A model generated the notes under the pieces. That model ran no database searches and was not told the DNA's origin. It saw only the letters and a program-made list of their open reading frames with translations. Below, in pieces: positions 9,679 through 63,151 of a DNA stretch of 64,000 bases; the first letter of the stretch is position 1, and the number at the start of each line of letters is the position of its first letter. Made by a program: the position numbers and the translations under genes. Source of the DNA: Clostridiales bacterium (GTDB taxonomy: Bacteria > Bacillota > Clostridia > Lachnospirales > Lachnospiraceae); contig DUNO01000005.1 of the NCBI GenBank assembly GCA_012839295.1, forward strand, positions 186,001 to 250,000, read 5' to 3'.

Positions 9679-10014
9679 TTATGTAAAAATATATTGTACT
9701 AACAGCATATATAATAAGGCACCCCCTCCAATGCTGAGGAGGGTGTTTTTTTTCCAGAGGTGGAGCAGGGTAATAACCAGGATACTGACCGCCTCCGGCA
9801 GCGCGTGGGGGGGCTGGATAAAGGATACATCCTTTAGGCAGTAGACCACAAGCATGCCTATGATGGTGAAGGGAAGAATATCCGCAAGGTATTTTATGTA
9901 CTTGGGGATTTCTTTGTTCTCGGGGAAGACCAGGAAGGGGAGCACCCGGGTCAGCTGGGTTCCAAGGACTACGACGCCAAAGAACAGGACTAACTGTAAA
10001 GTGGAATAATTCAT
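9679..10014 (-). CDS. azlD: AzlD-type branched-chain amino acid transporter subunit
   Basis: A 111-residue membrane protein with four hydrophobic segments and the AzlD hallmark TQLTRVLPFLVF near residues 17-28. It pairs with AzlC to export or transport branched-chain amino acids. I place the start at the ATG at 10014 (MNYSTLQ), because the upstream in-frame ATG lies inside an interspersed repeat that separates azlD from azlC; normally the two genes abut. Confidence 0.9.
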   Translation of the reverse strand: MNYSTLQLVLFFGVVVLGTQLTRVLPFLVFPENKEIPKYIKYLADILPFTIIGMLVVYCLKDVSFIQPPHALPEAVSILVITLLHLWKKNTLLSIGGGALLYMLLVQYIFT

Positions 10015-10018
10015 GTTT

Positions 10019-10103
10019 ACACCCGTGCCTTTCATTTTTTGATGACCTATTCAAAAAGTAAATAGGCCTTAATAAATAGTTTGAAAGAAAGTCACTTTCA
10101 AAC
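10019..10103 (-). repeat. Interspersed ~55-bp hairpin repeat, copy A, with flanking hairpin
   Basis: On the minus strand a hairpin (GTTTGAAAG/CTTTCAAAC, 10103-10079) overlaps the azlC stop and is followed by GGCCTATT...ATCAAAAAATGAAAGGCACGGGTGT, ending five bases before the azlD ATG (split here as ATCAAAAAATG then AAAGGCACGGGTGT). The same module occurs at 12252-12306 and 16321-16408. It contributes the sequence in front of azlD, whose ribosome site would be the GGGTG of the repeat. Confidence 0.7.
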
Positions 10104-12251: not shown

Positions 12252-12306
12252 AGGCCTATTCAAATTTTTCGGATGGGACATCAAAAAATTTGAAAGGCAC
12301 GGGTGT
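12252..12306 (+). repeat. Interspersed ~55-bp hairpin repeat, copy B
   Basis: AGGCCTATTC, AAATTTTT, a variable loop, AAAAAATTT, then GAAAGGCACGGGTGT. TTCAAATTTTT pairs with AAAAAATTTGAA. The right part lies inside the 3' end of pdxT in antisense orientation, supplying its last residues (TRAFQIF) and stop codon. Confidence 0.7.
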
Positions 12307-12874
12307 TAAAATTAATCAGCCGTAAAAAGGCTTCATGTATCCTGACATCCTCTGTCAGCTCCGGATGGAAGGCCGTGCCCAGCTGGTTCTGGTAGCTGAC
12401 CGCCGCAATATTACCCTCCACACGGGCCAGCACCTGGACTCCATGCCCCACCTCCTCGATATAAGGTGCCCGGATGAATTCCATGGGGAAGGTTCCAATG
12501 CCTTCCAGGTCTCCCGGGACAGAGAAGCTCCCCAGCTGCCTCCCGTAAGCATTGCGTTTCACCGTAACGGGAAGGGTCTGGAAATATGCTTTGTCATCAT
12601 TGCTCAGCTTCTCTGCCAGCAAAATCAGGCCTGCGCAGGTGGCCAGCACGGGAAGCCCGTCCCGGATACGCTCCTGCAGCAGGTCAAACATGCCAAGCTC
12701 ACGGAGCAGCTTTCCCTGTACCGTGCTTTCCCCGCCCGGCAGGATTAGGCCGTCAAAGGCCAGCTCCAGGTCGGCTCTCTGCCGCAGCTCGATGCATTCC
12801 ACACCGAGCCGCTCCAGCATTTTGATATGTTCAATAAATGCGCCCTGTACCGCTAACACCGCTATTTTTATCAA
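12281..12874 (-). CDS. pdxT: Pyridoxal 5'-phosphate synthase glutaminase subunit PdxT
   Basis: Class-I-type glutaminase that delivers ammonia to PdxS for PLP synthesis, 197 residues. LPGGESTVQGKLL, the nucleophile motif LATCAGLILLA and AFHPELTED (His/Glu of the triad) are intact. TTG start one base after the pdxS stop, with AAAGGGG upstream, so the pair is translationally coupled. The last ~8 residues come from an interspersed repeat (copy B) and extend the usual C-terminus without touching the active site. Confidence 0.95.
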   Translation of the reverse strand: MIKIAVLAVQGAFIEHIKMLERLGVECIELRQRADLELAFDGLILPGGESTVQGKLLRELGMFDLLQERIRDGLPVLATCAGLILLAEKLSNDDKAYFQTLPVTVKRNAYGRQLGSFSVPGDLEGIGTFPMEFIRAPYIEEVGHGVQVLARVEGNIAAVSYQNQLGTAFHPELTEDVRIHEAFLRLINFNTRAFQIF

Positions 12875-31252: not shown

Positions 31253-31394
31253 TTAGGCTGTGAAATGAATACGAGCACATATATATGCATCTGGCTTGCC
31301 TTTAACATCACATGATTACCAAGTGCAGGCAATCATGCGAGGCCCGGTCTGCGCCAGATGCATATATATGCGCTCGTATTCATTGCGCTAGTTA
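31253..31394. repeat. Long covarying hairpin element with pseudoknot-capable loop, copy 1
   Basis: The 5' arm starting TGAATACGAGC (31267 on) pairs with the 3' arm ending GCTCGTATTCA (to about 31382) over 30 bp with a single mismatch, closed at CTGGC/GCCAG. The ~57-nt apical region is nearly identical to copy 2 at 47267-47409, including TTGCCT/AGGCAA and CATG/CATG pairs that interleave as an H-type pseudoknot. No T-tract follows either end. It occupies the 389-bp gap between the YesN-like regulator and the sugar-binding lipoprotein. Confidence 0.75.
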
Positions 31395-47058: not shown

Positions 47059-47266
47059 GGCTTGGCCTCCTTTAGAGTTGATATGTCCTGGGTACTCCAG
47101 ATTTTGTATGTAGGGTAATGATAACATAAAGAGGGAGGGATTTCAATTTTCATTTCTGTATAGGGAGAGGCTCTTCGTTGACCCCGGAATACAGAGGCTG
47201 AAGCTATCGATGTATATACAAGTTGTAATATTACATAATATGATTTGAGAGGCAAATGGGATAGGG

Positions 47267-47409
47267 TTAGGCTGTGAGGTGAATCCGAGTGCAGATATAT
47301 CCGCCTGGGCTTGCCTTTAACATCCCATGATTGCCAAGTGCAGGCAAACATGGGATGCCCGGTCTGCGCCCAGGTGGATATATCTGCACTCAGATTCACC
47401 GCGTTAGTT
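47267..47409. repeat. Long covarying hairpin element with pseudoknot-capable loop, copy 2
   Basis: The 5' arm starting GGTGAATCCGAGTGC (47278 on) pairs with the 3' arm ending GCACTCAGATTCACC (to 47400) over about 33 bp with one mismatch and one G-T, closed at CTGGGC/GCCCAG. The apical loop matches copy 1 in about 52 of 57 positions; here ATCCCATG and CATGGGAT pair perfectly and interleave with TTGCCT/AGGCAA. Lies between divergent RR and clpB genes, 209 bp from the RR start and about 187 bp from clpB. Confidence 0.75.
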
Positions 47410-47595
47410 TGGTATAAAGAAGATTTTGTTGAGTGGATTATAATAATAGTAGATTATAAATATTAGGAAAATAATATTTATTGAAATTTCCTATTGCCTT
47501 CTTGTAGAGTTGGTGTTATAGTTGGTATAGAACAGACAATAAAGTGGATAAAACCTGTAGGATTTTAGGAAGCGCTCGTGAAGGAGGAGTGGAAT

Positions 47596-62121: not shown

Positions 62122-62281
62122 GTGCAGATGTCATATGATACCCATTTATTTAATTAATCTCTTTGCATGTGTCATATGATACCTATTTATTTAATTAATC
62201 TTTTTGCATGTATCGTATGATACCCATTTATTACATTATCTTTTTGCAGGAGGCTTATAATACCCATTTATTACATTATCT
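62122..62281. repeat. 40-bp tandem repeat, four units, upstream of MFS gene
   Basis: Four head-to-tail units of 39-41 bp (62122-62160, 62161-62201, 62202-62241, 62242-62281), each containing GATACCCATTTATT and a TCATATGAT-type palindrome. The last unit runs into the 3' end of ispE. They fill the ispE-MFS gap and would sit in the MFS promoter region on the minus strand. Confidence 0.8.
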
Positions 62282-63151
62282 TTCAGGATAATAGGGCTTT
62301 GTAAGAAATACCTGCTTCCCGTAGTGCTTGTGGCGTTTAAAATAATTAAAAGCCTTCTTCGCCAGCTCCACGTTTTTATAAATCCCAAACACGGTAGGGC
62401 CGCTTCCGCTCATCAGGGAGGTTAGGGCGCCCAGCTCCAGCATCTTGCGTTTGATGTCCGTAATAATGGGATAGTCCTTAACCGTCACAGTCTGGAGCAG
62501 GTTATCCATGGTTTTTGCCAGGGAGGAGAGGTCGTTTTGCTCAAGGGCATGCCTCATCCCTGCAATATCAGGATGTGTGACGGTACCGGTTAAACGCAGA
62601 TTCTCGTAGACGTATTTTGTGGAAACGCTGATATCGGGCTTTACAAGCAATACGGTGCATTCCGGGATGGCGGGCAGGGGTGTCAGCACCTCCCCAATTC
62701 CCTCCGATAGTGCGGTTCCAAGCTGGACGCAATAAGGAACGTCAGCACCTATTTTTACGCCGAGGCCTTTTAGTTCTTCCGTTGATAAGCCGGTTTGGTA
62801 TAATTCGTTCAAGCCCTTCAGGGTAGCAGCGGCATCAGAGCTGCCGCCCGCAAGGCCGGCGGCAACGGGGATATTCTTTTCCAGGGTAATGTTAAGGCCG
62901 TCCTTAATCCGGGCAGCCTCTAAAAATAATGCGGCAGCCCGATAAACCAGATTCCCCTGGTCGTTTGGGAGATAGGAGAGGTTTGTCCTTATCTTGATAC
63001 CGGTGGAAGGAATACGGCTAATTGTTATGATGTCGTGAAGATCCAGGGACTGCATGATCATGCAGACATCATGGTAACCATCGGGACGTTTTCTTATGAC
63101 ATCAAGACCGAGATTTATTTTCGCATAAGCGTTCACTGTAATTGTATTCAT
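62276..63151 (-). CDS. ispE: 4-diphosphocytidyl-2-C-methyl-D-erythritol kinase
   Basis: GHMP kinase of the MEP isoprenoid pathway, 291 residues. Start motif NAYAKINLGLDVIRKRPDGYHDV, ATP loop IPVAAGLAGGSSDAAATLKGLN, and C-terminal SLMSGSGPTVFGIYKN are all intact. GGAGG ribosome site. Its last two codons and stop lie in the tandem repeat array. Confidence 0.97.
   Translation of the reverse strand: MNTITVNAYAKINLGLDVIRKRPDGYHDVCMIMQSLDLHDIITISRIPSTGIKIRTNLSYLPNDQGNLVYRAAALFLEAARIKDGLNITLEKNIPVAAGLAGGSSDAAATLKGLNELYQTGLSTEELKGLGVKIGADVPYCVQLGTALSEGIGEVLTPLPAIPECTVLLVKPDISVSTKYVYENLRLTGTVTHPDIAGMRHALEQNDLSSLAKTMDNLLQTVTVKDYPIITDIKRKMLELGALTSLMSGSGPTVFGIYKNVELAKKAFNYFKRHKHYGKQVFLTKPYYPER

Follow-up and report, generated by a model that had tools for sequence, protein, structure and literature searches.

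The two elements of the window and their neighbouring genes

The window, i.e., the whole stretch of DNA analysed here (64,000 nucleotides; C2:186001-250000), belongs to a Lachnospiraceae genome of 6.36 Mb in 82 contigs. A preliminary description had reported two copies of a long-stem element in it, at 31253-31394 and 47267-47409, and both sequences were verified at these positions. The arms are 32 bp long in copy 1 and 33 bp in copy 2, with 57 nt between them in both copies, in agreement with the reported stems of ~30 bp and loop of ~57 nt; they are 97% and 94% complementary, respectively. Both strands of both copies fold 8.8-13.5 s.d. below dinucleotide shuffles, none of 200 shuffles folding as well for each strand. 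The features are as follows:

31253..31394, + strand: copy 1 core (core type A), from sequence, genome matches and neighbours
31264..31295, + strand: copy 1 left arm
31293..31306, + strand: copy 1 conserved internal-loop strand GGCTTGCCTTTAAC, from (nearly) invariant columns and relatives
31308..31340, + strand: copy 1 inner hairpin with 13-nt arms and a 7-nt loop (AAGTGCA), from the minus-strand fold
31342..31355, + strand: copy 1 conserved internal-loop strand GCCCGGTCTGCGCC, from (nearly) invariant columns and relatives
31353..31384, + strand: copy 1 right arm
47235..47241, unstranded: copy 2 left target-site duplication ATAATAT, 6/7 match to the right flank
47242..47439, + strand: copy 2 whole element, left to right inverted repeat, ends according to the consensus of relatives
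47242..47260, + strand: copy 2 left terminal inverted repeat GATTTGAGAGGCAAATGGG, by consensus from relatives
47267..47409, + strand: copy 2 core
47278..47310, + strand: copy 2 left arm
47368..47400, + strand: copy 2 right arm
47423..47439, + strand: copy 2 right terminal inverted repeat ATTTTGTTGAGTGGATT, degenerate, by consensus from relatives
47440..47446, unstranded: copy 2 right target-site duplication ATAATAA, 6/7 match to the left flank

The limits given previously cover the core only, as conservation continues outside them in the flank alignment. Terminal inverted repeats and target-site duplications sit just outside these limits, contrary to the earlier impression that no IS end was present; the left end of copy 1 was not recognisable by eye when the copies were aligned with their flanks. 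That no known riboswitch or ribozyme had been recognised was borne out, since no Rfam family exceeded its cut-off in the window.

As for the neighbouring genes, the "sugar regulator" assigned beside copy 1 is actually an AraC-type response regulator adjoining a histidine kinase, as examined by Pfam, and DUF3502 is the sole Pfam match of the lipoprotein gene product beside this copy. Copy 1 is antisense to both neighbours, namely the minus-strand response regulator gene and the DUF3502 protein gene. Copy 2 is flanked by divergent genes, which encode a response regulator and a ClpB-like protein (names from Pfam matches), so that both window copies are untypical in placement.

Two further repeats were seen in the window. 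An imperfect 32-bp inverted pair containing AAAGGCACGGGTGT (10009-10040 and 12285-12316, 2.2 kb apart) possibly represents the ends of another transposon, and letters similar to this pair occur beside copies L021 and L029. At 62123-62285, a 41-nt unit is present in four tandem copies between two minus-strand ORFs.

Copy number and distribution

The element is repeated throughout its own genome. A DNA query found 40 sense places and six reverse-strand echoes with 40 of 108 candidates scored, and a covariance model gave 130 matches, both strands counted. Sixteen contig ends of this genome fall inside the hairpin (C10, C12, C13, C14, C17, C22, C25, C29, C31, C32, C41, C46, C49, C51, C63 and C64), and contigs breaking at the element were also met in the search for an autonomous partner. 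Because the assembly breaks at the element, the own-genome copy counts are lower bounds. Copies examined below number 87, comprising 61 from the own genome and 26 from genome G012.

A covariance-model search of relatives, as the preliminary description had proposed, found further homologues: 11 of the 34 genus genomes matched, the own genome included. A plain DNA query matched 2 of 61 relatives, again including the own genome. Core A and the second core described below (core B) had no match at 1e-5 in plasmids and phages, and viral contigs had no match to one exact pattern. Rfam gave two weak microRNA matches in nine relatives, which were dismissed as not credible. No description of the core-A element was found in the literature, as covered by titles and abstract openings, with subscription papers mostly outside this scope.

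Terminal inverted repeats and target-site duplications

Intact relatives are ~170-315 bp long and are bounded by terminal inverted repeats GATTYGAGYGTCAAAAGYC with 6-7 bp target-site duplications. The pattern ATGATTYGAGYGTCAAAAGTC, allowing up to two mismatches, was present in 12 of the 34 genus genomes, and a control pattern in none. Matches to the inverted-repeat pattern are mostly inward pairs, 76-314 bp long, and 6 of 17 loci (L145, L146, L154, L156, L157 and L158) had no near partner. The flanks matched exactly over 6 bp in 12 of 46 rows, whereas re-pairing the flanks predicts 0.56; many offsets and lengths were tried, of which this is one, and the 46 rows include three overlapping rows of L115 that represent one element. 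An exact 7-bp match was found in 5 of 45 elements versus 0.2%, and the elements with an exact 6-bp match and those with an exact 7-bp match form disjoint sets.

In addition, short forms that lost the core retain the ends, and ORFs overlapping the elements are few and mostly short. Terminal inverted repeats, target-site duplication, non-coding character and high copy number, by which a miniature inverted-repeat transposable element (MITE) is recognised, were therefore all found. Because of the inverted repeats, the 6-7 bp duplications and the core-less short forms that keep their ends, we assign the element to the MITE class: both window features are copies of a MITE-like transposable element, a variant among MITE-like structured repeats. 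Two results weigh against this reading. No transposon-distance pair with transposase-like ORFs, as expected for an autonomous transposon, was found among the matches listed, and eight ORFs beside unpaired ends included no transposase by eye. Furthermore, alignment yielded neither an empty site nor a shared insertion; of the candidate pairs, L023/L230 and L016/L240 were aligned, and neither represents a shared insertion.

As a separate observation, some copies of genome G004 (L127/L148, L149, L150, L188 and L191) lie inside a longer palindrome that recurs with them and whose outer letters resemble AAAGTCCCTTT. These embedded copies are perhaps nested MITEs.

Other cores between the same ends

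The same repeats also enclose other cores. Core B, ~270-315 nt long and unrelated to core A, lies between them in G004, G010, G016 and G029, as well as in G167 and G223, which belong to other genera. A core-B DNA query matched 22 of 299 family genomes with two places scored per genome. Among eight further core-B loci, the central module was present in six, one lacked the motif, and one had its motif match elsewhere.

A third core is a known Rfam family, Clostridiales-1 (RF01699; cut-off 48 bits), which lay between the same inverted repeats in L246 (121.5 bits) and L258 (118.7 bits), both from genome G277 and both found through the repeat pattern. L247 scored 54.9 bits, and L248 scored 27.8 bits, below the cut-off. 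The Clostridiales-1 covariance model matched 82 of 150 family genomes, 63 of them over the cut-off and often at 17 or more places per genome; it matched none of 14 control genomes and had no match in the own genome, including the window. Clostridiales-1 was seen as a high-copy element in G084, G095, G035, G104 and others. Exact 7-bp duplications flanked 12 of 30 copies (best matches only, from 13 genomes) versus 1.5% of 870 re-pairings. Clostridiales-1 is listed as a candidate structured RNA in a table of its founding paper of 2010, and no paper on mobile Clostridiales-1 was found among titles and abstract openings, subscription papers being mostly outside this scope.

These results raise the tentative idea, which we consider rather unlikely, that one kind of Lachnospiraceae mobilisation system spreads unrelated, elaborate hairpin RNAs (core A, core B and Clostridiales-1) as functional cargo, often to dozens of copies per genome, and that orphan RNAs of gut Clostridia may largely be such mobile RNAs. 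If so, the cargo cores would act on the mRNAs behind which they insert, or on the transposition machinery. The findings also suggest that the orphan Clostridiales-1 RNA can be explained as a mobile element with 7-bp duplications, and they predict that several structured cores are carried by related transposases, in part into 3' UTRs.

Position relative to genes

Among the 61 own-genome copies, 39 lie between two sense genes (++), four between two antisense genes (--), nine between convergent (+-) and eight between divergent (-+) genes, and one lies at an edge; the length-based ORF rule used for this count misplaced window copy 1. For tandem pairs, the difference between sense and antisense gives p = 3e-8 with the copies taken as independent, and the counts under three other ORF rules were 36:5, 38:4 and 39:4. 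In convergent pairs, the stop codon of the sense gene was the nearer one in nine of nine cases (3-64 nt versus 126-386 nt), and in 11 of 12, 9 of 10 and 8 of 9 cases under the other ORF rules, which indicates that the element is anchored to the gene end and not to the replication strand. In these placements, the inverted copies L215 and L216 were counted by loop orientation. A sense stop lay within 75 nt before the core in 55 of 85 copies of the two genomes, and the other way in four.

In G012 the orientation bias is weak, at 13:5 (p 0.1) and at 15:6 with stricter rules. Other core-A elements had nine distinct ++ versus two -- placements (L092 included as core A), core B is oriented oppositely in the naming used here (9 to 2, without L092), and forms untyped by core were divided 6 to 6. 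Clostridiales-1 had no bias, with 7 ++ versus 11 --.

Given that the own-genome copies are mostly in the sense direction right after stop codons, they probably lie in 3' UTRs, and transcription of most of them as part of a 3' UTR, in the form of a hairpin, is probable, judging from their placement in the sequence. Against this reading stand the weak orientation in G012, its absence in Clostridiales-1 and the untypical placement of the two window copies.

Stem covariation, loop and pseudoknot

In 38 own-genome copies, 90.5% of the cells of a 53-pair structure were paired. Double changes were observed in 27 of the 53 pairs and 160 cells, whereas the shuffled means were 15.2 pairs and 43.2 cells, and none of 500 shuffles reached the observed values. 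Note that related copies were taken as independent in this count, and that two of the 53 pairs come from the fold of the minus strand and do not form at all on the plus strand. The compensating arm changes first noticed between the two window copies are thus general across the 38 copies, beyond shuffles. Own-genome copies show hardly any variation in the loop strands GGCTTGCCTTTAAC and GCCCGGTCTGCGCC; in other species these strands are recognisable as TGCCTTWCC ... CCGGTCT, and the part beyond them varies between species.

An H-type pseudoknot had been suggested for the loop. In own-genome copies its helices are indeed 97.2% paired overall, the first helix at 99.1% with hardly any variation, and a nested alternative is 92.7% paired. 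Across species the suggestion did not hold: 24 loci were tried, all but one from other genomes, and 19 were readable. Seven of these contain a perfectly complementary stretch of 6 nt or more; among the seven, L095 pairs with another stretch and L118 is an own-genome copy. The pseudoknot was therefore rejected as a family feature, although it may form within own-genome copies.

Origin of the matching arms

Arms may be made to match by template switching, a caveat already raised in the preliminary description. Alternatively, a structured RNA (3'-UTR or antisense) may be directly selected for pairing, with mismatched RNAs being removed and mobility being secondary, which we consider rather unlikely. 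The covariation beyond shuffles, the internal-loop strands conserved across species and the sense orientation after stop codons, together with the orientation of core B (9 to 2), favour such an RNA, and the kinds of changes in the stem speak against it. Specifically, comparison of each of the 61 own-genome copies with its nearest neighbour gave 246 double changes from one Watson-Crick pair to another, comprising 159 double transversions and 87 double transitions, and 99 single departures from Watson-Crick pairing, of which 80 were transitions; a further 77 single and 14 double differences were not assigned to a class, related copies were treated as independent, and neighbours are not ancestors. 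Stepwise RNA evolution via G-U would favour transitions, so that the many double transversions count against it. However, 159:87 is also close to the 2:1 ratio given by plainly saturated stems, which weakens the argument for template switching.

The whole loop was inverted between the outer ends in 2 of the 87 copies (L215 2001-2142 and L216 2001-2141), which likewise disfavours a directly selected RNA. In L215, the loop is reversed, but the outer ends are placed as usual, in sense and 52 nt downstream of a stop; in L216, unlike L215, the outer ends run antisense and no stop is near. Homogenised arms together with an inverted spacer are described as the footprint of template switching in parts of PMC8604942 and PMC8794818. 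Passages of PMC8604942 cite a transversion preference in bacteria, although its own yeast data show more transitions, and loop inversion with compensation is stated to be extremely rare in rRNA in a passage of PMC8794818.

We also compared the two strands. The strand opposite to the gene sense gave the better fold in 59 of 61 own-genome copies, 25 of 26 copies of G012, 9 of 15 other core-A elements and 16 of 20 core-B elements, a point in favour of a selected RNA, but this better-folding strand is not the one transcribed from the upstream genes. On the gene-sense strand, the ratio of A.C to G.T was 109:68 for the own-genome copies, 38:5 for those of G012, 28:49 for the 15 other core-A elements (one of them from the own genome) and 74:97 for the 20 core-B elements. 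The own-genome A.C excess on this strand, which corresponds to G-U on the other strand and is one-sided (87:26 in stem columns), supports a structured RNA and counts against template switching; nevertheless, wobble favours no strand throughout the four sets. Assignment of the functional strand by wobble was dropped, as the own-genome minus-strand bias reverses in the other core-A elements and core B.

In the stem middle (columns 27-34 of the 61-copy alignment), 123 cells had an A-C/T-G exchange that keeps the alternation of A/C and T/G columns, 81 had transitions and 25 had others. These exchanges with column parity are explained by neither template switching nor stepwise RNA selection.

Taken together, the earlier claim of selection for structure stands in part: covariation is strong and the loop and ends are conserved, but template switching fits at least as well. 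The template-switch caveat agrees with the inverted loops, with the excess of double transversions (159 versus 87) and with the lack of a consistent wobble strand. Template switching is thus the likelier main cause of the matched arms, in addition to selection on the loop and ends, neither being proven; the conservation of loop and ends indicates some selection.

Proposed explanation

We regard it as probable that the element is a MITE-like non-autonomous element whose arms are rematched by template switching with some selection on the hairpin, and whose copies are mostly transcribed as 3'-UTR hairpins. A transposase supplied in trans would move the elements by their inverted repeats. The core would form a long hairpin in which the loop and ends are constrained and the stem middle drifts, with DNA template switching, or cruciform exchange, making its two arms identical time and again; selection on the hairpin may contribute to some extent. 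By analogy with the Correia and ERIC elements, a hairpin of this size in the 3' UTR would be expected to influence how the mRNA is processed or degraded. With its dozens of paralogous hairpins, this genome provides a natural set for separating template switching from RNA selection, and it calls for caution where covariation tests take selection for granted.

Alternatively, the host may retain the element as a transcription terminator or as a protector of 3' ends, selection having amplified and oriented it; this would also account for the sense placement right after stop codons. We consider this improbable, because a terminator scan matched 25 of 61 copies downstream versus 26 of 61 upstream and does not discriminate, a T-run directly after the hairpin is absent by eye, and the inverted repeats and duplications are marks of insertion. 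A single-stranded DNA recombination substrate read as a folded strand (attC-like, IS200/IS605-like or REP-like) has very little probability: enzymes reading single-stranded DNA recognise long hairpins in which the unpaired strands are conserved and the stem is free to vary in sequence, and G.T wobbles pair in DNA as well, but the short core-less forms retain their ends, the core end motifs TTAGGCTG and GTTAGT are direct rather than inverted by eye, and the elements have terminal inverted repeats with 6-7 bp duplications, which to our knowledge attC, IS200/IS605 and REP-type systems do not make.

Comparison with known systems

The attC sites of integrons have inverted RYYYAAC / GTTRRRY boxes at their ends. 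An attC identity was rejected for the core-A element in view of the direct arrangement of its end motifs. The Correia and ERIC elements are MITE-like, as is the present element, but differ from it in their ends and hosts, and we know of no such long variable stem with a fixed loop in either of them. RNase III cuts messages containing Correia, and ERIC has effects at gene 3' ends, according to passages of PMC10969869.

REP elements are described in part of PMC3733652 as high-copy palindromes with GTAG or CGTC tags and proposed roles in mRNA stabilisation and termination; they measure 20-40 bp, in contrast to the ~170-315 bp of the core-A element with its inverted repeats and duplications. Among the repeats bcr1-bcr18 of the Bacillus cereus group, some are MITE-like and some have conserved secondary structure, 84 of 165 and 62 of 155 repeats lay within transcripts in two strains, and among bcr1-bcr3 a correlation with decay was reported for bcr3 only, as stated in passages of PMC3446304. 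These repeats differ from the present element in organisms and sequences, and arm homogenisation and inverted loops are unmentioned in those passages.

Finally, Clostridiales-1 differs from the core-A element in that its core has no recognisable relation to core A and its orientation bias is absent; like the core-A element, however, it is a multicopy long hairpin, and its usual ends, GATRCCAGGGTCAAAAG ... CTTTTGACCCCAACATC, resemble those of the core-A element.
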